Source: a virus
DNA: 24,482 nucleotides
Virus record (IMG/VR): IMGVR_UViG_3300046492_000371
Span: 1 to 24,482 of that record
Reading direction: 5' to 3' (one strand)
Position numbers and translations under genes: made by a program. A model generated the notes under the pieces. That model worked only from the letters and a program-made list of their open reading frames with translations, ran no database searches and was not told where the DNA came from. Below are positions 4,932 to 20,381 of the stretch, piece after piece (the stretch's first letter is position 1; every line of letters begins with the position of its first letter).

Positions 4932-5750
4932 ATGAAGTTTGAAGTAGAAAATAACGAAAAAAATTTGGCAGGAATCTACTCTATAACTTGCTTGGCGAAT
5001 GGTAGACAATACGTTGGATCAACGACTAAGTTTTGCAGAAGACACAAGGATCACTTAAGAGCTTTAGCTTCTAAAACTCACGGAAATAGACACCTCCAGT
5101 TTTCCTTCGACAAATACGGGCCCGAAAGTTTTGTATTTAAAGTAGTGGAATTAGTTGTAGACAGAATCGATTTACTAAGCAGAGAACAGATACACTTAAA
5201 TAAACTATCTAGGGAAGATTTCAATATAACAAGAACAGCTGGATCAGTTGATATGACTGAAGAGACTGTTTCTAAAATGAAGAATGCTTATTATGCAAAT
5301 GAGAAAGATAGACTTTTGCAATTAAAAACGTTGCACGATAAAACTAGGGGTAAAACCCAATCTAATGAAGAACGTCTTCAGTCAGAGATTTCCGGGTTCA
5401 AGGCGGCGTTGATTCACAGAAAAATATCTGATAGAGATGTACTAGCTTTCATACATTTGCTTATTTCAAATCCATCATACAAAGCATCAGATTTTGCTAA
5501 AAAATTGGGTGTTGATAAAAGTACTATTTGTAATATATTCAAACGTCTAAGTTCTAAAGGTAATAATTTTCTGCCAATTTTTACCCCCATACTTGACAAG
5601 ATCGGATACATAAAAAGCGGAGCTAATAGCTATTTAGACATACGTAAGTTGGTAGAAAATAACGTATTGAATTTAGATGTCGAATTTGTACCGGGTAGAG
5701 ATAATCTGATAGTCGATCCTATTGAGTTACACTCTTTTGTAAAAAGATAG
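4932..5750 (+). CDS. GIY-YIG homing endonuclease, free-standing
   Basis: A 272-residue nuclease. The N-terminal GIY-YIG domain is complete: G14-I15-Y16, then Y27-V28-G29, basic residues R36/R37, H41, and the metal-binding glutamate E85 in SREQ. A linker follows, then a helix-turn-helix at about residues 177-205 (ASDFAKKLGVDKSTICNIFK) that likely gives DNA-site specificity. The architecture is that of Seg-type free-standing homing endonucleases, which spread by cutting related genomes lacking them. It lies between two conserved tail genes, on the opposite strand, and is visibly more A+T-rich than its neighbours, consistent with horizontal arrival. Translation looks restrained: AAGGA is 14 nt before the ATG, and an out-of-frame 7-codon frame starts at 4919, almost on the Shine-Dalgarno. 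Confidence 0.85.
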   Translation: MKFEVENNEKNLAGIYSITCLANGRQYVGSTTKFCRRHKDHLRALASKTHGNRHLQFSFDKYGPESFVFKVVELVVDRIDLLSREQIHLNKLSREDFNITRTAGSVDMTEETVSKMKNAYYANEKDRLLQLKTLHDKTRGKTQSNEERLQSEISGFKAALIHRKISDRDVLAFIHLLISNPSYKASDFAKKLGVDKSTICNIFKRLSSKGNNFLPIFTPILDKIGYIKSGANSYLDIRKLVENNVLNLDVEFVPGRDNLIVDPIELHSFVKR

Positions 5751-10003: not shown

Positions 10004-10267
10004 TTAGGGCGTATTGTTTTTAAAGTACTCAGCTACTTTACGCGGAGTAGTGAGTTTGTGATGATCACCGGGATTGATTTTACCGAATCTACTTTCTATA
10101 GCTGCGACCAACTTTTTACCAGCTATTGTTGTAGCAGCCTTATTTTCACGGTTCTTAGGAAAGAAAGCATGATCTGGTTTCATACTTGAATCAAAATGTT
10201 TATGAGTTAAATCCATAATGATTTCAAGATTACCACCGCTAGCGATTTTTTCAAGATATTTGTTCAT
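10004..10267 (-). CDS. Small tagged virion protein, leaderless candidate
   Basis: An 87-residue basic protein beginning with the tag MNKYLEKIAS that also starts four head-cluster proteins (15781, 16196, 20077 and 20381, two of them as MSNKYLEKVAS and MQNKYLEKIAS). The remainder (KKLVAAIESRFGKINPGDHHK) is compact and histidine/lysine-rich; I recognise no family. It is the only tagged protein in the tail-side block. There is no Shine-Dalgarno before the ATG. Instead the late motif TTAAAATA ends exactly 5 nt upstream, so by T4 geometry transcription would begin at the A of the ATG. A strong terminator (10280-10304) isolates it from the upstream operon. Confidence 0.7.
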   Translation of the reverse strand: MNKYLEKIASGGNLEIIMDLTHKHFDSSMKPDHAFFPKNRENKAATTIAGKKLVAAIESRFGKINPGDHHKLTTPRKVAEYFKNNTP

Positions 10268-13186: not shown

Positions 13187-13231
13187 GGATCACCTCCTCT
13201 CGGAAGTTCTAACCACGCTGAGTGATTAGAA
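13187..13231 (-). promoter_or_regulatory. Capsid stop-codon hairpin plus orphan Shine-Dalgarno
   Basis: On the minus strand TTCTAATCAC pairs with GTGGTTAGAA (10 bp, one U-G wobble that pairs only in this strand's RNA). The capsid stop codon TAA lies in the 5' arm. Eight bases later comes AGGAGGTGATCC (13187-13198), a 12-nt complement of the conserved 16S rRNA 3' end, with no usable start codon before the terminator. Confidence 0.5.
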
Positions 13232-14119
13232 GTTTAGAACAACTGCACCATTTACGTTACCGATACCAGCACCTACAGCTTCGTAAGTATGGAACTCGAT
13301 AATGTCTGCTTCGGTCTTCAGGAAGACTGTCGGAGCTTGAAGCTCATAGAACTGACCGAGGTAGTTCTGAGGAGCAAAAACGATTGCTTGGTTCGTCGGG
13401 AGGATGTTAGCCTTGTTCGTGGTGATGATCTTGTAACCGAAGAAGTTATCAAGAGTCGCTTCGCCTTGGAACAGTGCTGATGCTGCCGGTGAGCCTACGT
13501 CTGTTGCTGCAAAAGTCAGCAGGTCAGCGTACATTGATTGTGTCATAAGGATACAACCAACAGGTAGCTTGTTCAGAAGCATGAACTTGATACCAGCCAT
13601 CAGGTTAGCCTTTGTAAAGCCACCAGCGATGGTGTGAACGTTGCTGTTTGCTGTAGCAATAGCGTTGATGTTTTGATAGAAGTTTACGTCTTCTTGTTCT
13701 TGAATATCCTTAACGCTGTTTTCTTGAAGGATAGTACGAATGTCGGTACGGTATGTAGCGAGTTCGAACTTGCTCTTACGGAAGTCAGCTGATTGGATCT
13801 TCTGGAATGTAACTGGGTAACGTTGTGTCTTCCAGTAACGGATTTCCGGACGGCCAAGGAAAGGAGCAGTAGCAGCTACTGAATCAGGTTCCTTTTCAAC
13901 GATAACCGTTGGTTCTTCGGTCAGTTGGCGATCAAGCTCTGAAGCTGTGATTTGAACTGGCGTAAGAATCTTACGGGTAAAGCCGTCTTCACGAAGCTTC
14001 TGACGTACGAAAGCTGACATTGCAGCTGAAGCTTCTTTGGTGTGACCTTGGTCAATCTTGTCTAGGAAAGATTGATTCAGGAATTGTACGTTTACGGTTT
14101 CTGTGTTATATGCGCTCAT
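13226..14119 (-). CDS. Major capsid protein, HK97-fold candidate
   Basis: A 297-residue protein. It has the layout of an HK97-fold coat protein: a charged N-terminal arm (to about 50), an extended loop with beta strands (RYWKTQRYPVTFQKIQSADF), a long helix in QENSVKDIQEQEDVNFYQNI, and a C-terminal half of strands and helices (ANLMAGIKFMLLNKLPVGCI, GYKIITTNKANILPTNQ, TVFLKTEADIIEFHTYEAVG). The last segment, with its E-loop-to-domain return strand, is typical of coat proteins. It follows the scaffold and decoration candidates and ends at an operon terminator, as expected. AGGAAAATAAAA precedes the ATG. The call rests on pattern and gene order, not on a match to a named relative. Confidence 0.75.
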   Translation of the reverse strand: MSAYNTETVNVQFLNQSFLDKIDQGHTKEASAAMSAFVRQKLREDGFTRKILTPVQITASELDRQLTEEPTVIVEKEPDSVAATAPFLGRPEIRYWKTQRYPVTFQKIQSADFRKSKFELATYRTDIRTILQENSVKDIQEQEDVNFYQNINAIATANSNVHTIAGGFTKANLMAGIKFMLLNKLPVGCILMTQSMYADLLTFAATDVGSPAASALFQGEATLDNFFGYKIITTNKANILPTNQAIVFAPQNYLGQFYELQAPTVFLKTEADIIEFHTYEAVGAGIGNVNGAVVLNF

Positions 14120-14703: not shown

Positions 14704-15297
14704 CAGCATGAATTCAAGAAGGGGATCAGTCTTAGGACGAGCAAAGCCTACGCCATTACCCATTCCCCACGGTTCATCCATTGCAGATGCAACCTTCTGA
14801 AGAACTTCAGGAGAGACTCGTTGGAGTTGTTCCAGATCTTCTTGTGTGAACTGAGCGGCAGAAGCCAGCTTAGTGATTTGCTCAGGCATCTCTACAGGCA
14901 CTTCTAGAGCCCTGTCGAGTGCGACTTGATGTTCGGTAGCCTGCTTCTCAATCTCAGCCTTCAGGCCTTCGATTTGGGCTTCTAGAGCATCAACGTATTC
15001 AGCTGTCTTGTGCAGAAGTTCAACCGTTGGATTTTCATCTACTTCAAGAACGAAGTTTGAAAGTTCAGCAACGTTAATGTTTGCTGCTTTAACAAGCTTT
15101 ACAGCTTCTTCATGATCAACGCCCTTCATAGCTAGAGCTGACGTAGCCTCTTTTTCCATGATATGTTGAGCTACTTGATAACGAGCATCTGCATCGCTAA
15201 AACCAGCTTGCTTAAGATGTTCGATAGCAACAGCTTCGGGAGTTGCAAGACGAACTGTTTCAGCGTGGTCTTTGAGGATTGTTGATAGTTTAGTCAT
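14698..15297 (-). CDS. Scaffold / core protein candidate
   Basis: A 199-residue acidic helical protein. Residues 20-75 hold two copies of a helical motif (AIEHLKQAGFSDADARYQVA; ALAMKGVDHEEAVKLVKAA) shared with other genes of this cluster. Residues 92-130 form a coiled coil (YVDALEAQIEGLKAEIEKQA). TKLASA (142-147) and LQKVAS (166-171) may be protease sites. Its place directly before the decoration and coat genes and its composition suit a capsid scaffold. This is inferred, with no family match. It overlaps the previous gene by 8 nt. Confidence 0.55.
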   Translation of the reverse strand: MTKLSTILKDHAETVRLATPEAVAIEHLKQAGFSDADARYQVAQHIMEKEATSALAMKGVDHEEAVKLVKAANINVAELSNFVLEVDENPTVELLHKTAEYVDALEAQIEGLKAEIEKQATEHQVALDRALEVPVEMPEQITKLASAAQFTQEDLEQLQRVSPEVLQKVASAMDEPWGMGNGVGFARPKTDPLLEFMLS

Positions 15298-15781
15298 TTT
15301 GTTTACGTCTTTTCTCGATTACGCTCTTAGCGTGGTTGTGTCTGAAGTTATCAGCGTAAGCTATTCCCGGAATCATGCCTGCCGTACCTCCGACAACACC
15401 GCCTACAGCCCTACCTGCATTTTGAGTCTTCTGTTTAATCATGTCATGGGCATACACTGCAAAGCCTTTAGCTTCACGCTCTGGAGTTCTACCACCTGCC
15501 ATAAGACTCTTATATGCCTCAGCACCAAATTTCTTTCCTTGCTTGGCTCCAATCTTGGCTCCGATTTTACCACCGAGAGTAGCTCCGCCATGATGCCCAA
15601 ACCCAGCACCTAAGCCTATTGCTCCGATACCCAGAAGAGTTTTTCCAAAGTTTTTAAGACTAGATCTGCCAGCAGTAGCGTATTCTACATCGTAGTTAGC
15701 TTTTTCTCTTCCATGTAAAGTCTTTCTATATTCTTTGCTTGGAAATATGGAAGCAACTTTCTCTAAGTACTTATTGGACAT
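15290..15781 (-). CDS. Tagged internal protein with glycine-zipper segments
   Basis: A 163-residue basic protein starting with the tag MSNKYLEKVAS. It has glycine-rich hydrophobic stretches (LLGIGAIGLGAGFGHHGGAT at about 49-68 and AVGGVVGGTAGMIPGIAYA at about 127-145) of the glycine-zipper type that can insert in membranes, separated by lysine-rich helices. The tag and small size suggest packaging in the head and possible ejection into the host envelope; that is inferred. It overlaps the neighbouring genes by 11 and 8 nt, so translation is probably coupled along 16196-14698. Confidence 0.6.
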   Translation of the reverse strand: MSNKYLEKVASIFPSKEYRKTLHGREKANYDVEYATAGRSSLKNFGKTLLGIGAIGLGAGFGHHGGATLGGKIGAKIGAKQGKKFGAEAYKSLMAGGRTPEREAKGFAVYAHDMIKQKTQNAGRAVGGVVGGTAGMIPGIAYADNFRHNHAKSVIEKRRKQND

Positions 15782-16196
15782 GTTTGTTAATCTGTTTATT
15801 TAGTTTAACACCAGCATAGTCTGCTGCTAAACCAGCTGCTCCACTTAACGCCATAATTTTAGCGTTGTGAAGTTTGGCACCTTGCCCGAATACCTTAGGC
15901 ATAGAGTTCATCAGCTTATGAGCACCAAAGCCTGTAGCTGTGCCCAAACCAGCGATTACGCCAGTGTTGACCAGCTCTTGTTTATGTGTTAAATCCTGCG
16001 CAGCTTTATACAACGCTCTGGTAAAGAGAGTCTTAGCTCCCCGTATCAGTTTTGAACCAGGTGCCGTAATAGGCGCTGGTTCTTTTACTTTCCCTAGGCT
16101 TACATCTTTCTTGACAATCATACCAGCCGATTTGATGCGACCTTGAGTGTCCATGTCAAAATTAAGACTAGCGATTTTTTCAAGATATTTGTTCAT
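15771..16196 (-). CDS. Tagged internal protein
   Basis: A 141-residue protein beginning MNKYLEKIAS. Its C-terminal half contains two hydrophobic alanine/glycine-rich segments (TGVIAGLGTATGFGAHKLM and AKIMALSGAAGLAADYAGVK); the whole protein is basic. No enzyme motif is visible. It starts 10 nt after the terminator at 16206 with AGG ahead of the ATG, and overlaps the next tagged gene by 11 nt. It is probably one of a set of head-packaged proteins; the function is unknown. Confidence 0.6.
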   Translation of the reverse strand: MNKYLEKIASLNFDMDTQGRIKSAGMIVKKDVSLGKVKEPAPITAPGSKLIRGAKTLFTRALYKAAQDLTHKQELVNTGVIAGLGTATGFGAHKLMNSMPKVFGQGAKLHNAKIMALSGAAGLAADYAGVKLNKQINKHVQ

Positions 16197-16205
16197 AGTT
16201 ACCTA

Positions 16206-16242
16206 ATAAAAAACCCCTCTACATCGAGGATACAGAGGGGTT
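16206..16242 (-). terminator. Rho-independent terminator
   Basis: On the minus strand AACCCCTCT / AGAGGGGTT with an inner ATC/GAT pairing, then six T. It follows the -1 frame extension that stops at 16266. Confidence 0.9.
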
Positions 16243-16265: not shown

Positions 16266-16817
16266 TTAGTCTGCTTTAGATTTATGTTTCTTGTCTGCTA
16301 GAGCACCTTTGATTGCCGAATATGCTTTTCCGCCAAGGTATCCACCGCCGACAGATCCTGCAACAAGTCCTGGAAGTCCAGCTGCATGAACACCTGCTAC
16401 TGCACCTGCAGTACCGGTTACGAATCCTGATAAGGTACCACCTACTTTATCACCTTTCTTGGATCCAGCATAACCACTTAGTGCACTAAGAAGAGCTTCT
16501 TTTTCTAACTCAGAAGCCTTCTTTTCTACTAGATCAACTGCATTTTCAAAATCCAGACCTGAGTCTACCAGAAGACTTACTGCAGCTTGTTTTTCTTGGT
16601 TTTTGTTCTTTTGTACTGCGGCGCCAACACCTAGACCTAAGACTCCTGCGCCAGTGGCCGCTGCTGCGACCCTAGCCTTATTCAGTGTGCGTGGAGCACC
16701 CATAACATTCTTGGGACCCCCACCTGAGCCTGGAATACGTGTGACTTTTTGAGCTAACGAAGTGCCTGGAACTTTACCCGCTAGTTGCAGGACACCCGCT
16801 TCTTTCGTTAGCCCAGC
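16266..16817 (-). CDS. -1 frame extension of the scaffold-like gene
   Basis: An open frame of 183 codons reached by a -1 shift at the A AAA AAG site of the gene at 16808-17671; the joined product would be 468 residues. The first 38 residues (AGLTKEAGVLQLAGKVPGTS...) have no ATG, GTG or TTG start with a ribosome site. The first ATG (16703) also has none, which argues against a separate gene. The frame then carries a third copy of the cluster's motif (AVSLLVDSGLDFENAVDLVE, 16515-16583) and ends in a glycine-zipper region (GGTLSGFVTGTAGAVAGVHA) and a basic tail. The same motif lies just before the shift in frame 0, which strongly supports the join. A terminator follows. Confidence 0.75.
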   Translation of the reverse strand, partial: AGLTKEAGVLQLAGKVPGTSLAQKVTRIPGSGGGPKNVMGAPRTLNKARVAAAATGAGVLGLGVGAAVQKNKNQEKQAAVSLLVDSGLDFENAVDLVEKKASELEKEALLSALSGYAGSKKGDKVGGTLSGFVTGTAGAVAGVHAAGLPGLVAGSVGGGYLGGKAYSAIKGALADKKHKSKAD

Positions 16818-16823
16818 TTTTTT
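16753..16823 (-). promoter_or_regulatory. Programmed -1 frameshift signal
   Basis: Slippery heptamer A AAA AAG at 16823-16817, in frame as GTA-AAA-AAG. It is identical to the E. coli dnaX site. Four bases later GCTAACGAA (16812-16804) pairs perfectly with TTCGTTAGC (16761-16753); a G-U and a G-C pair can extend it to 11 bp. The enclosed 42 nt form an inner 7-bp stem (GTG-CCTG / CAGGCAC). The zero-frame stop TAA lies within the first arm. Confidence 0.8.
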
Positions 16824-17671
16824 ACCAAGTTTACTGCGGTGTCAAAATCGAAGCCAGCTTCGATGAAGTGTGACAGTGCAGCTTGCTTAACTTGTGAAGC
16901 TTCTTCACGTTCGATTTCTTCAGCAGCTTCCTTGACCATGTTTACTGCATCGTCAAATTCAAAGCCTTGCTCAACGAGTGATGAAACTGCAGCAGCCTTT
17001 TCTTGACCAGCCGTTACCCAACCACCAGTTTGAACTTGGTTAGGAGCTTGTGCACCGATTTGTGCGCCTTCATCCTTAGCAATGCCAGGAGCAGGATTTT
17101 GATCAACTGGAGCAGCTCCACGAGCCATTGCGTCAGCAACGATTGCGTCGAAGATTTGGTTGATTGTACCACCATTACCCTTGCCGTCTGTGCCGGGTTG
17201 GTTCTGGATGATAGCATCTTGTTCAGCTACTTGAGCTGCAAGATCTTGTTGTGTCTTGTTCGGTACAGCATTACCAATACCGTTAACGGTATTTTGGTCA
17301 CCTACTGAAGCCAGCTTTTCAAGAAGAGCTTCGGCTAGTGCCTTGCCTGCGTCAGCAGCTTGTTTGTTCATAGTATCCTCTGGTTTAACTTGATCAAGTT
17401 TAATGGATGCAACTTTTTGCATTACTTCTTTTGCTAAGTCAGCGCCTTTAGCCGCAGCTTCTTTGACACGTTCATCAGCATCGTTCTTCTCTTTGGCGTC
17501 CTTGACTTCTTCCTTAGCTTCCTTTACATCTTTGTCAGCTTTGTCGATAGCCTTTTCTGCCTTATCTTCATCTTTCTTTTCTTCTTTCTCTGTATCTTCA
17601 CTAGCTACTTTATGGAGGCCAGCTTCTTTTTGCAGATCATTAAGAAGACCGTCTAGAGTGAAACTCATCAT
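16808..17671 (-). CDS. Charged scaffold-like protein with frameshift site
   Basis: A 287-residue zero-frame product. Residues 25-75 are almost entirely K, E, D and A (a charged coiled coil, as in phage core proteins). The middle is Q/N/G-rich. Residues 226-252 (AAAVSSLVEQGFEFDDAVNM) and 263-285 (AALSHFIEAGFDFDTAVNLV) are tandem copies of a helical motif. HKVAS (20-24), MQKVAS (85-89) and LEKLAS (117-122) may be maturation-protease sites. The frame ends VKKLG-stop right after A AAA AAG, so a fraction of ribosomes should continue into 16817-16266. Either ATG at 17671 or 17668 may start it, with AAAAAAGGAT upstream. A prohead core or scaffold role is inferred from composition and from its place next to the protease gene. 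Confidence 0.65.
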   Translation of the reverse strand: MMSFTLDGLLNDLQKEAGLHKVASEDTEKEEKKDEDKAEKAIDKADKDVKEAKEEVKDAKEKNDADERVKEAAAKGADLAKEVMQKVASIKLDQVKPEDTMNKQAADAGKALAEALLEKLASVGDQNTVNGIGNAVPNKTQQDLAAQVAEQDAIIQNQPGTDGKGNGGTINQIFDAIVADAMARGAAPVDQNPAPGIAKDEGAQIGAQAPNQVQTGGWVTAGQEKAAAVSSLVEQGFEFDDAVNMVKEAAEEIEREEASQVKQAALSHFIEAGFDFDTAVNLVKKLG

Positions 17672-17693: not shown

Positions 17694-17733
17694 GGCTACG
17701 TTGAATTGTAGCCTTTCGAAAATCTTAGGTCAA
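17694..17733 (-). promoter_or_regulatory. Possible sigma70 promoter and leader hairpin
   Basis: On the minus strand TTGACC (17733-17728), 17 nt, then TACAAT (17710-17705), a good sigma70 spacing. The -10 overlaps a hairpin GGCTAC / GTAGCC (17694-17713). It is in the 58-nt gap before the frameshift gene. It could be chance. Confidence 0.3.
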
Positions 17734-19244
17734 TTCTTTTTCTTCTGAACCAACTTAACCATCGCTGTTTTGGCGAGTTTGTAAGTCAGCTTATAGTCAG
17801 AAGCAGATTTAACTAAAACTATTTTAACACCATCTGAAGCCTTGTTCAATTCTTGCTCTTTCATTTTCCGCTCTATTGCTTGGGTAATGTACCACTTAGC
17901 AGCTAGAGCAGCTCCGCCGATAGCAGCAATGGCAGTAAGCATCTTCATCAAACTTGACTTATTCCCTTCTTCTGACTTGAGATTCTGTTCACGGAACTTT
18001 TCGTAAATCGTAGGTTCGATGTGAGGACCGTTGCCGACAAAGCCAACATTAGTACCCTGTACATAACCGTAAGTCGAAGCCTGTTTGTTCAGCGATACAC
18101 GTTCCTCAACATACTGTGGAAGATACGAGGCATCCTGCATATGAGGAAGCATAGCATGAACGATACCGATGTTGGGTTCTGTAATTTCACCGAAATCACG
18201 GTCGAATTCGGGAATAGCAGTAAGACCAACCTTATCAAAATATGCAGCAGCCATTGGGCCAATGCCGCGCCCTTCTTCACCCATCAATTTTCTAGCAATC
18301 AGTTCAGCGAGAAAACCAATCGAAGGGCTAATGCCAAGATGAGCAAAGGTACTAAAAGTCTCATTAAGCTTATAATTTCGAAGAACATCGATAACCGATC
18401 CTTGCGGATCACTAACTCGTGATACAAGATTATCAAGATTAGAATCGATAGATACAACATCGCCATCAATCTCCTTCGTTAATTCTGAAAGCTTTTTAAG
18501 AGTAGCACTCTTCTGTAACGGAAGGTCATTTAGACCAGCCATTAGCGCCTCATCCACTGAACCAATCACTTCGCTTTCAGATGCTACTTTCTGTAGAACT
18601 GCGCTAGTTACGTCTGCTGGACGAAATACAATAGAGATGTCGAAGAATCGCAATGGAGCCAAGTTAAGCGCCATTACCTTACGACCATCAGGGAAAACCT
18701 TACCCAACTGTTCGCTTAGATGCTCACAATACTCTTCACGGGTACGAGCTTTGTTACCACAAATTGAACAAACATCGAAAGGTGTACGGCAAGCCATTGA
18801 AGTCTTTGGCCAGTCACCGCTTTCGATACGATCAACGATGTCTGGAGCCTTGTCGTTCCAAAGCTCAGCGATAAGCTCAACGCGGTGCATTCTGTCGTTG
18901 TAGACAGAGTACACAACTTGACCAATAGCGATTTCGGGATTTTTGTTTACGTGGTTTCTGAAAATATGGGCAGGAGCAGTCTCAAAGGTATTGTGGTAAT
19001 CAATGAGGCTACTTTCTGGGAAGTAGTCAGCATTACGGTTTGCACCATAAAACTCTCCAGCACCCATAGCTAGAATGTGAAGATACGTCTTGCCCTGAAT
19101 GGGCGTTAGTTTAGAAGCGAATTCTTGAATGCGAGAATCCGTAGCCTGCTTAATAAGACTGCCTGTAAGATCTTTGGGATCGAGAATAGTTACCTGTGGT
19201 TCTTCACGGTAAAAAGAAGACGTATCGATTAGTTTAGTTAGCAT
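17730..19244 (-). CDS. Prohead maturation protease
   Basis: A 504-residue protein whose first 220 residues match the head maturation proteases of large phages (HK97/herpes-type serine protease fold): ANRNADYFPESSL at 68-80, the probable catalytic histidine H98 in FRNHVNKNPE, the probable serine S149 in TSMACR, and a closing strand in LRFFDISIVFRPADV. A likely zinc site follows the serine (C159-x2-C162, C173, H175). The rest is helical, with one membrane-like segment near 430-450 (AIAAIGGAALAAKWYI) and a lysine-rich tail, so it may also bind the core or membrane. LQKVAS at 217-222 ends the protease domain and could be a self-cleavage site. The ATG has no Shine-Dalgarno; a late motif lies 5 nt upstream. 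Confidence 0.75.
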   Translation of the reverse strand: MLTKLIDTSSFYREEPQVTILDPKDLTGSLIKQATDSRIQEFASKLTPIQGKTYLHILAMGAGEFYGANRNADYFPESSLIDYHNTFETAPAHIFRNHVNKNPEIAIGQVVYSVYNDRMHRVELIAELWNDKAPDIVDRIESGDWPKTSMACRTPFDVCSICGNKARTREEYCEHLSEQLGKVFPDGRKVMALNLAPLRFFDISIVFRPADVTSAVLQKVASESEVIGSVDEALMAGLNDLPLQKSATLKKLSELTKEIDGDVVSIDSNLDNLVSRVSDPQGSVIDVLRNYKLNETFSTFAHLGISPSIGFLAELIARKLMGEEGRGIGPMAAAYFDKVGLTAIPEFDRDFGEITEPNIGIVHAMLPHMQDASYLPQYVEERVSLNKQASTYGYVQGTNVGFVGNGPHIEPTIYEKFREQNLKSEEGNKSSLMKMLTAIAAIGGAALAAKWYITQAIERKMKEQELNKASDGVKIVLVKSASDYKLTYKLAKTAMVKLVQKKKN

Positions 19245-19267: not shown

Positions 19268-20077
19268 TTATTTTGACTCTTTCTTCGGATGCCACTTGTC
19301 CATAATTTTCTTGGCAAGATATGCACCGGCTACTGGGATTGCAGCCCCAACAGCATAAGAGCCCATTTGCGAAGGTAGAAGCTTGCGTACATACTTATTA
19401 GCAGCGGCAGCTCCCTTGTGGGCTTTAATTCCTTTGTATGCATGGTAATTAGCAGCAGCTTCTTCTCTTAAAGTTAGTGCGCCAGGAATAGCTGCAACGG
19501 CTGGAGCGTAATCACGAGTCTTGTCATTTGAAAGAGCTGCAATGGTAGCAACACTACTTACTCCGGGCATTTTGGCAATTGGAGCCAACGCTTTAAGCTT
19601 TCCGTAACTTTGGAAGTCTTTGGCGTGGCCAAGTTCATGCATTAGAACGTCAGCGTTCTTAACAGTCTTTCCACCATTTCTTAATCCTACTACAAAGTCT
19701 TTTTGAGCACCTACCCCTCTGGTACGTAGAAACGCAGGTCCAGGAGCGTCATTACTAGCTAAGTGTTTATAAATCTTTCCCAAAGGATTCTTTGAAAAAG
19801 TCATTTTATCTACATTGTGCTTTCTAGTATTGAAAGTAGTGGTTTTATGTAAACCATTATCTTTCATAAACTTTCTAAGGGTGTGGTGATCTGCTCCAGA
19901 ATCGCTGTGAGAAGCTGATATTGCAGATACAACTTTTCTAGATACTGCATGCTGTAGGGCACCACCGGCTACTCCCGCAGAAAAGCCTCCAAGCAAGGAG
20001 GCTCCTACTGCTGAAACAACTTTAGACTTATCTTTGTTCTTGTCTGATGCTATTTTTTCTAAATACTTATTTTGCAT
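19268..20077 (-). CDS. Tagged protein with HEXXH metallopeptidase motif
   Basis: A 269-residue basic protein starting MQNKYLEKIAS. Residues 145-156 read LMHELGHAKDFQ, a zinc metallopeptidase HEXXH signature (H147, E148, H151). A downstream EE pair in LREEAAANYHAY (205-206) could give the third metal ligand in the manner of gluzincins. Hydrophobic segments lie at 22-42 (SAVGASLLGGFSAGVAGGAL) and 239-255 (GSYAVGAAIPVAGAYLA). The combination suggests a head-packaged, membrane-associated peptidase, perhaps acting on head proteins or on host proteins after ejection; function is inferred. It overlaps the previous tagged gene by 11 nt and lies 23 nt from the protease gene. Confidence 0.6.
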   Translation of the reverse strand: MQNKYLEKIASDKNKDKSKVVSAVGASLLGGFSAGVAGGALQHAVSRKVVSAISASHSDSGADHHTLRKFMKDNGLHKTTTFNTRKHNVDKMTFSKNPLGKIYKHLASNDAPGPAFLRTRGVGAQKDFVVGLRNGGKTVKNADVLMHELGHAKDFQSYGKLKALAPIAKMPGVSSVATIAALSNDKTRDYAPAVAAIPGALTLREEAAANYHAYKGIKAHKGAAAANKYVRKLLPSQMGSYAVGAAIPVAGAYLAKKIMDKWHPKKESK

Positions 20078-20381
20078 TTTGGTCAGGGACTAATTTCAGA
20101 TTTACGGTTACCTTAGGCTTTTTCCTAAGAGCCTCTGAAATACCCTTAAGCTCGTTCAGCGATTGCGCCTCAAGTACGCCACGTTTTTTATTGTCAAGCT
20201 TATTCTCTAGGCTATTACTATAATTAGCAGCGCCTAGAGAGAGACCGGCAGCAGACATACCCAGACCAACTTTAGAAGTTGTTGAGCTTCGTTTCCAGCC
20301 CTTCGCAAAACTTTTGCCGAAACCAGTTATGGATTCAGCTACAGCTTTTGCGGATGCGATTTTCTCTAGGTACTTATTCAT
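20067..20381 (-). CDS. Tagged small basic protein
   Basis: A 104-residue protein starting MNKYLEKIAS, then a glycine/serine-rich weakly hydrophobic stretch (TSKVGLGMSAAGLSLGAANY) and a lysine-rich helical C-terminus. No enzyme motif is visible. Its ATG lies 2 nt after the stop of the gene at 20384 without a Shine-Dalgarno, so it is probably translated by coupling, and it overlaps the tagged peptidase gene by 11 nt. Probably a head-internal protein. Confidence 0.6.
   Translation of the reverse strand: MNKYLEKIASAKAVAESITGFGKSFAKGWKRSSTTSKVGLGMSAAGLSLGAANYSNSLENKLDNKKRGVLEAQSLNELKGISEALRKKPKVTVNLKLVPDQNAK

Follow-up and report, generated by a model that had tools for sequence, protein, structure and literature searches.

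A probable −1 programmed ribosomal frameshift in a putative head-core gene of a phage genome from IMG/VR

Described frameshifting systems and the present locus

Frameshifting is a textbook means of fixing the ratio of two phage tail assembly proteins, and it is also known for shell subunits. In E. coli dnaX, the heptamer A_AAA_AAG acts together with a downstream stem-loop and an upstream Shine-Dalgarno booster, and the −1 shift yields the short product; a long product made by the shift has been proposed for a few bacterial dnaX genes (PMC5009743). The tail assembly chaperones G and GT of lambda arise from a −1 shift late in an assembly gene, which gives a minor extended form (PMC5009743). Frameshifted major capsid proteins include those of T7 (10A/10B) and Proteus phage Privateer, the latter at GGGAAAG (PMC7881722), that of phage A2 (PMC10885494), and that of Listeria phage PSA, where the shift is +1 (PMC5009743). 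Finally, the carboxysome protein CsoS2 is an assembly protein of two lengths made by −1 frameshifting, with the shift giving the short form at about 50%, and lumen versus shell roles have been proposed for the two forms (PMC5009743).

Here we describe a gene, shared by a group of large phages, in IMG/VR virus record IMGVR_UViG_3300046492_000371, of which the whole stretch of 24,482 nucleotides that we analyzed is called the window. This gene shares with dnaX the heptamer A AAA AAG and a downstream stem; unlike in E. coli, the shift would yield the long product, and by eye there was no Shine-Dalgarno-like booster upstream of the heptamer in GCAGTAAACTTGGT. It resembles lambda G/GT in that a −1 shift would occur late in an assembly gene and give a minor extended form, but G/GT is a tail gene, whose kind lies in the tail module before the tape measure gene, whereas the window gene is placed between a maturation protease and the major capsid protein, a position that shows no relation to G/GT. 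Like the frameshifted capsid proteins, its product would be a head protein in short and extended forms; those proteins are shell subunits, however, and the product here is a different head-block protein that is probably internal. CsoS2 is bacterial and unrelated. Salmonella phage Arash comes close in content, with a motif protein (gp223) beside the protease followed by a glycine-rich basic protein (gp224), but there the second protein is separately started past a terminator-like hairpin, with no frameshift. A literature search that covered open papers, and few subscription papers or preprints, turned up no report of a frameshift in the gene for a phage scaffold or core protein. The mechanism is ordinary; what looks new is its use in a head-core gene, on two occasions, among relatives that have the gene fused or as two separate genes.

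The slippery site, stem and extension in the window clade

The zero-frame core protein (287 aa; 16808..17671, minus strand) carries two copies of the motif LVxxGxxFxxAVxxVK, and its gene ends, on the minus strand, GTA AAA AAG CTG GGC TAA. An earlier, sequence-only reading of this DNA had proposed a dnaX-type −1 frameshift here, and each element that it named can be read in the window: the in-frame heptamer A AAA AAG (16823-16817), a 4-nt spacer, an exact 9-bp stem formed by GCTAACGAA (16812-16804) and TTCGTTAGC (16761-16753) with 42 nt between its arms, and the zero-frame stop TAA (16808..16810), which falls within the 5' arm. The stem becomes longer when flanking pairs are counted. The −1 frame (16266..16817, minus strand; 183 codons plus a stop) begins AGLTKEAG and has glycine-rich stretches, and the third copy of the motif that had been claimed for it is indeed present, as LLVDSGLDFENAVDLV. 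Past its stop lies a terminator-like hairpin with a T run (16215..16230, minus strand), a weak feature in that two were found in the region against 1.8 expected. This layout is rare in the window: among 38 mechanically called ORFs of at least 100 codons, 3 have a −1 frame running on for at least 80 codons, and only the 287-codon frame has an in-frame heptamer within its −1 overlap. As a word, AAAAAAG is not enriched in the window (8 found vs 9.5 expected).

Most ribosomes would read two codons beyond the heptamer and stop, giving the 287-aa protein. Some would slip back one base at the heptamer, aided by the stem just downstream, and would go on to make a 468-aa form with the third motif copy and a glycine-rich basic tail. 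Such a shift would set the proportion in which short and long protein enter the prohead.

Using the extension as query, two IMG/VR searches returned the same seven contigs, from six datasets. The sequence-only reading had suggested comparing relatives for conservation of the heptamer and stem, and the heptamer, the zero-frame TAA and the stem core are kept in 7/7 of these contigs. Only four alleles exist in this clade, two of them nearly alike: that of the window (= L002), L003 = L007, which is 9 bases off the window over the joined gene, L004 = L005 = L006, and L012. The L002 contig is the same virus as the window (0 mismatches over 11 kb and, in another stretch, 9 over the first 7.4 kb), so independent support comes from L003/L007, L004-L006 and L012. 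Searches of an annotated phage collection with the gene, as protein and as DNA, gave no match, and a scan of genome contigs found no relative.

The 72 nt after the heptamer folded with a z score of −3.3 in the window (1/200 shuffles as good), −3.9 in L012 and −2.5 in L004, and 91 nt of the window with flanks gave z −1.9 (6/200 shuffles as good). The folded stem has 11 bp and begins 1 nt past the heptamer in the window; in L012 it has 12 bp and follows the heptamer directly, and inner pairs vary between alleles. By folding, a stimulatory structure is predicted downstream of the heptamer. Ten of the 12 pairs in the long stem are invariant in three distinct rows and each of the other two is disrupted in a single allele; as no compensatory change occurs in the outer stem, covariation neither supports nor denies it. 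Every pair of the inner 5-bp hairpin is kept despite three one-sided changes, for which three-row shuffles were uninformative. Rfam returned only a sub-threshold miRNA match.

All four alleles have extensions that begin AGLTKEAG, and the extensions of diverged alleles differ in length (183, 107 and 273 codons). Across the three pairs of diverged alleles, dN/dS in the extension was 0.145-0.189 at dS 0.99-1.50, similar to the 0.154-0.201 of the upstream part in the same pairs. The extension thus evolves as coding sequence, which is not expected of untranslated sequence. The window, L004 and L012 share 16 identical codons at the slip (−6 to +9), the longest such run in the joined gene (P 0.00205 in 20,000 permutations, for a stretch chosen as the longest run). 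Fixed stretches to +22 gave P 0.027 from the slip and P 0.019 from one codon earlier, taken in that order. Between the window and L012, synonymous differences number 1 of 22 vs 122 of 308 (P 3.5e-4), and the pairwise synonymous conservation is significant only for this pair (window-L004 P 0.60; L004-L012 P 0.11); local exchange between relatives of the window and of L012 could add to it.

Relatives with other layouts and a second slippery site

We surveyed 42 loci anchored on the protease, consisting of the first 40 of 80 loci plus Arash and D69. Four loci dropped out for want of a protease end by our search expression (L034, L044 and L051 were inspected separately and L045 was left out), two had no candidate gene, and seven repeated core genes, leaving 29 distinct core genes, one of which (L058) has no motif. 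At the gene end, A AAA AAG occurs in four and G GGA AAG in two; for the other 23, no heptamer fell in frame within a −1 overlap. The 29 include seven genes (L027, L028, L032, L035, L037, L038 and L056) that stay in one frame and close with a motif copy followed by a [LI][YF]G-type tail, and L034, L116 and L124 are also one-frame with such an ending, giving ten distinct one-frame core genes in all. L027 and L028 are the nearest relatives that lack a slip site (protease 81% identical), and they encode the joined protein, with its third motif copy, in one frame. In L030 and L031 the core gene ends early and the ELYG end sits in a separate downstream ORF.

By eye, the next gene is separately started in L016, L048, L049, L050, L052, L053 and L060. 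The sequence-only reading had named relatives with a separately started second gene and no heptamer as what would speak against a frameshift; the Arash group is of this kind, which does not refute a shift in the window clade, since its nearest heptamer-less relatives, L027 and L028, have the fused gene in one frame. The Arash branch is predicted from its gene layout to make the two proteins separately. Its members L016, L048, L052 and L053 also have −1 frames open for 218-231 codons past the stop. The likeliest reading of these is chance overlap and not frameshifting, since by eye a terminator-like hairpin, a Shine-Dalgarno-like GAGGTG and an ATG intervene.

A scan for heptamers across 122 loci and 1465 ORFs, from which overlapping contigs were not fully removed, gave 37 hits, 8 of them in the core gene (6 A AAA AAG and 2 G GGA AAG). 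Four of the other 29 hits were inspected (L059, L070, L084 and L091), and all were ordinary ATG-started overlaps. Bacillus phage G gp22/gp23 (L018, 8744-10413), annotated as joined in a similar place and with an AAAAAAG-like sequence near the first stop, was considered as a parallel and set aside as an endolysin.

The second heptamer occurs in Vibrio phages D69, D181 and D148, which are near copies of one another, and in L047 and L051, where the core gene ends GGGAAAGTAAAA (G GGA AAG TAA). GGGAAAG is also the heptamer of lambda G/GT. The −1 frame is open past the stop for 158 (D69), 166 (L047) and 127 (L051) codons. By BLASTP without composition or low-complexity correction, these glycine- and lysine-rich extensions are 36-38% identical to one another over 84-143 residues, and they resemble Arash gp224, to which that of D69 is 32% identical. 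The stem after the heptamer gave z −2.7 to −4.3 in D69, depending on the folded length, and −2.9 to −4.8 in L047; L051 has no stem near the heptamer (z −1.4 and −0.5) and reached z −3.3 only with 121 nt. In D69, D181 and D148 the annotation of the next gene starts only at an ATG 168 bases beyond the core-gene stop, so that the early part of the −1 frame is assigned to no gene. Scanning viral sequences with the D69 core protein gave no relative. This second case is likely a real frameshift, but it is weaker than that at A AAA AAG.

To relate the branches, we compared the core proteins. The window protein had no tblastn match to D69 or to Arash. A profile of the window clade plus L027 matched a profile of D69, Arash, L047, L051 and L044 with 98.5% probability over 151 columns that include both motif copies; the E value of 3.7e-15 is generous, because each profile is built from few and similar rows and the two have a repeat in common. 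The position of the gene beside the protease agrees with a single family. We built a protease tree from 33 of the 34 rows chosen (the search expression missed L056). In it, the three rows with G GGA AAG make up a clade of their own (100/100), as do the seven rows with separate genes (100/100). A third clade (100/100) unites the rows that have A AAA AAG with L027/L028 and is nested in a group (100/99) that is otherwise all one-frame. The tree sets the A AAA AAG and G GGA AAG branches apart, and two gains of frameshifting would be its simple reading. It also joins L029, the contig of L012, to L027/L028 (93/88), and a core tree unites all A AAA AAG rows weakly (49/17); L027/L028 may have lost the shift, or the A AAA AAG shift may have arisen twice.

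Nature of the protein and readings of the locus

The slip gene sits between a capsid maturation protease upstream (504 aa; 17730..19244, minus strand) and the major capsid protein (297 aa; 13226..14119, minus strand; phrog_2522, 4.6e-14), and is not itself the capsid gene. The protease is called after a Gordonia phage Pupper match so annotated and a match to phrog_18299 (6e-7); its best PHROGs hit is phrog_2774, a family without known function. The position and neighbors of the slip gene in this protease-capsid block agree with the head-core-like label given by the sequence-only reading, but its protein matched no described scaffold family: PHROGs gave no family match and Pfam only a sub-cut-off Dynamitin match. 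AlphaFold modeled the one-frame homologue L027 poorly (mean pLDDT 42.4). The gene probably makes an inner-head protein, given its position and neighbors, the profile match to the D69 and Arash proteins, and the presence of the Arash protein in a virion preparation. Specifically, Table 2 of the Arash study gives 9 and 8 unique peptides for gp223 and gp224 in purified particles, within a list of 116 proteins that includes enzymes and of which, as its authors note, some may be carry-over (PMC10585845).

The sequence KEA[GS] was found near residue 30 in 17/17 capsid-protein N-termini caught by the search expression (16 distinct from the start methionine); in the capsid protein of the window it lies at about residue 28-31 and is a candidate cleavage site of the maturation protease. 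The broader pattern KxA exceeded residue-shuffled controls in 5/22 window proteins, uncorrected for 22 tests: the core protein (12 vs 5.3), a 199-aa protein (7 vs 1.8), 182-aa and 364-aa proteins, and the protease (P 0.034). KxA is not in excess in the extension (5 vs 3.3; P 0.21). AGLTKEAG, just after the slip, resembles the KEA[GS] site of the capsid protein, and for this reason we tentatively suggest that the protease may later cut the tail free there.

Several other features of the region were observed. Five minus-strand ORFs start M(x)NKYLEKxA[S] (10004-10267, 15290-15781, 15771-16196, 19268-20077 and 20067-20381), and similar starts are present in related loci. This looks like a shared N-terminal targeting or pro-sequence; T4 internal proteins, for comparison, carry a capsid targeting sequence. 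The 269-aa ORF among these (19268-20077), which starts NKYLEKIAS, has a metalloprotease-like HELGH motif and is possibly a packaged enzyme. A 272-aa ORF on the plus strand (4932-5750), amid minus-strand structural genes, begins GIYSITCLANGRQYVGST, which we take to resemble a GIY-YIG homing endonuclease. In Mycobacterium phage I3 (L019, 4839-9065), the protease match lies within a gene of 1408 codons that immediately precedes the head gene region, and the protease there may be fused to its core protein.

We consider a −1 programmed ribosomal frameshift in a head-core gene the best explanation of the window gene, at a probability of roughly 0.9, because the site is conserved, the extension is under coding selection, one-frame homologues exist, and a distant branch has a second cassette. 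Three other explanations each explain less. Of these, production of the extension as a separate protein, with ribosomes reinitiating or starting internally past the zero-frame stop, holds up best and is still improbable. The sequence-only reading had held that the extension lacks a start of its own; the window and its near-identical allele L007, however, share an ATG at extension codon 39 (16703, opening a 145-aa ORF) that L004 and L012 do not have. A separate start would also accord with the separately started second gene of the Arash group and with the early TTG at extension codon 7 of D69 and ATG at codon 12 of L047. The extensions have no start codon at a shared place, however: the first possible start is the ATG at codon 39 in the window and L007, a TTG at codon 10 in L004, a GTG at codon 64 in L012 and, in L051, an ATG at codon 28. 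Moreover, the codons from the slip to those starts, the best conserved of all, would go untranslated.

Slippage of RNA polymerase on the A6 run, by which some mRNAs would gain one A and the extension would be read without ribosomal slippage, suits the run at the site but is very unlikely; six A is short for efficient transcriptional slippage, a conserved stem follows the heptamer, and GGGAAAG in the second branch has no comparable run. An error in sequencing, or gene decay that left a frameshift by chance, would fit the single open frame of L027 and L028 but is strongly disfavored: the same break recurs in 7 contigs from 6 datasets, and in each of the three diverged pairs the extension is under purifying selection.

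Beyond the frameshift itself, a tentative and rather doubtful proposal is that the minor extended core protein delivers to the prohead, in fixed proportion, a glycine-rich tail that the protease can release, a ratio control like that of G/GT, and that frameshifting was gained at least two times from different layouts, namely a one-frame fusion and separate genes. If so, its gain at least twice in the same gene would point to selection on the ratio itself. The layouts of this family (two slippery sites, one frame and two genes) let one ask why short and long forms of the core protein are needed.
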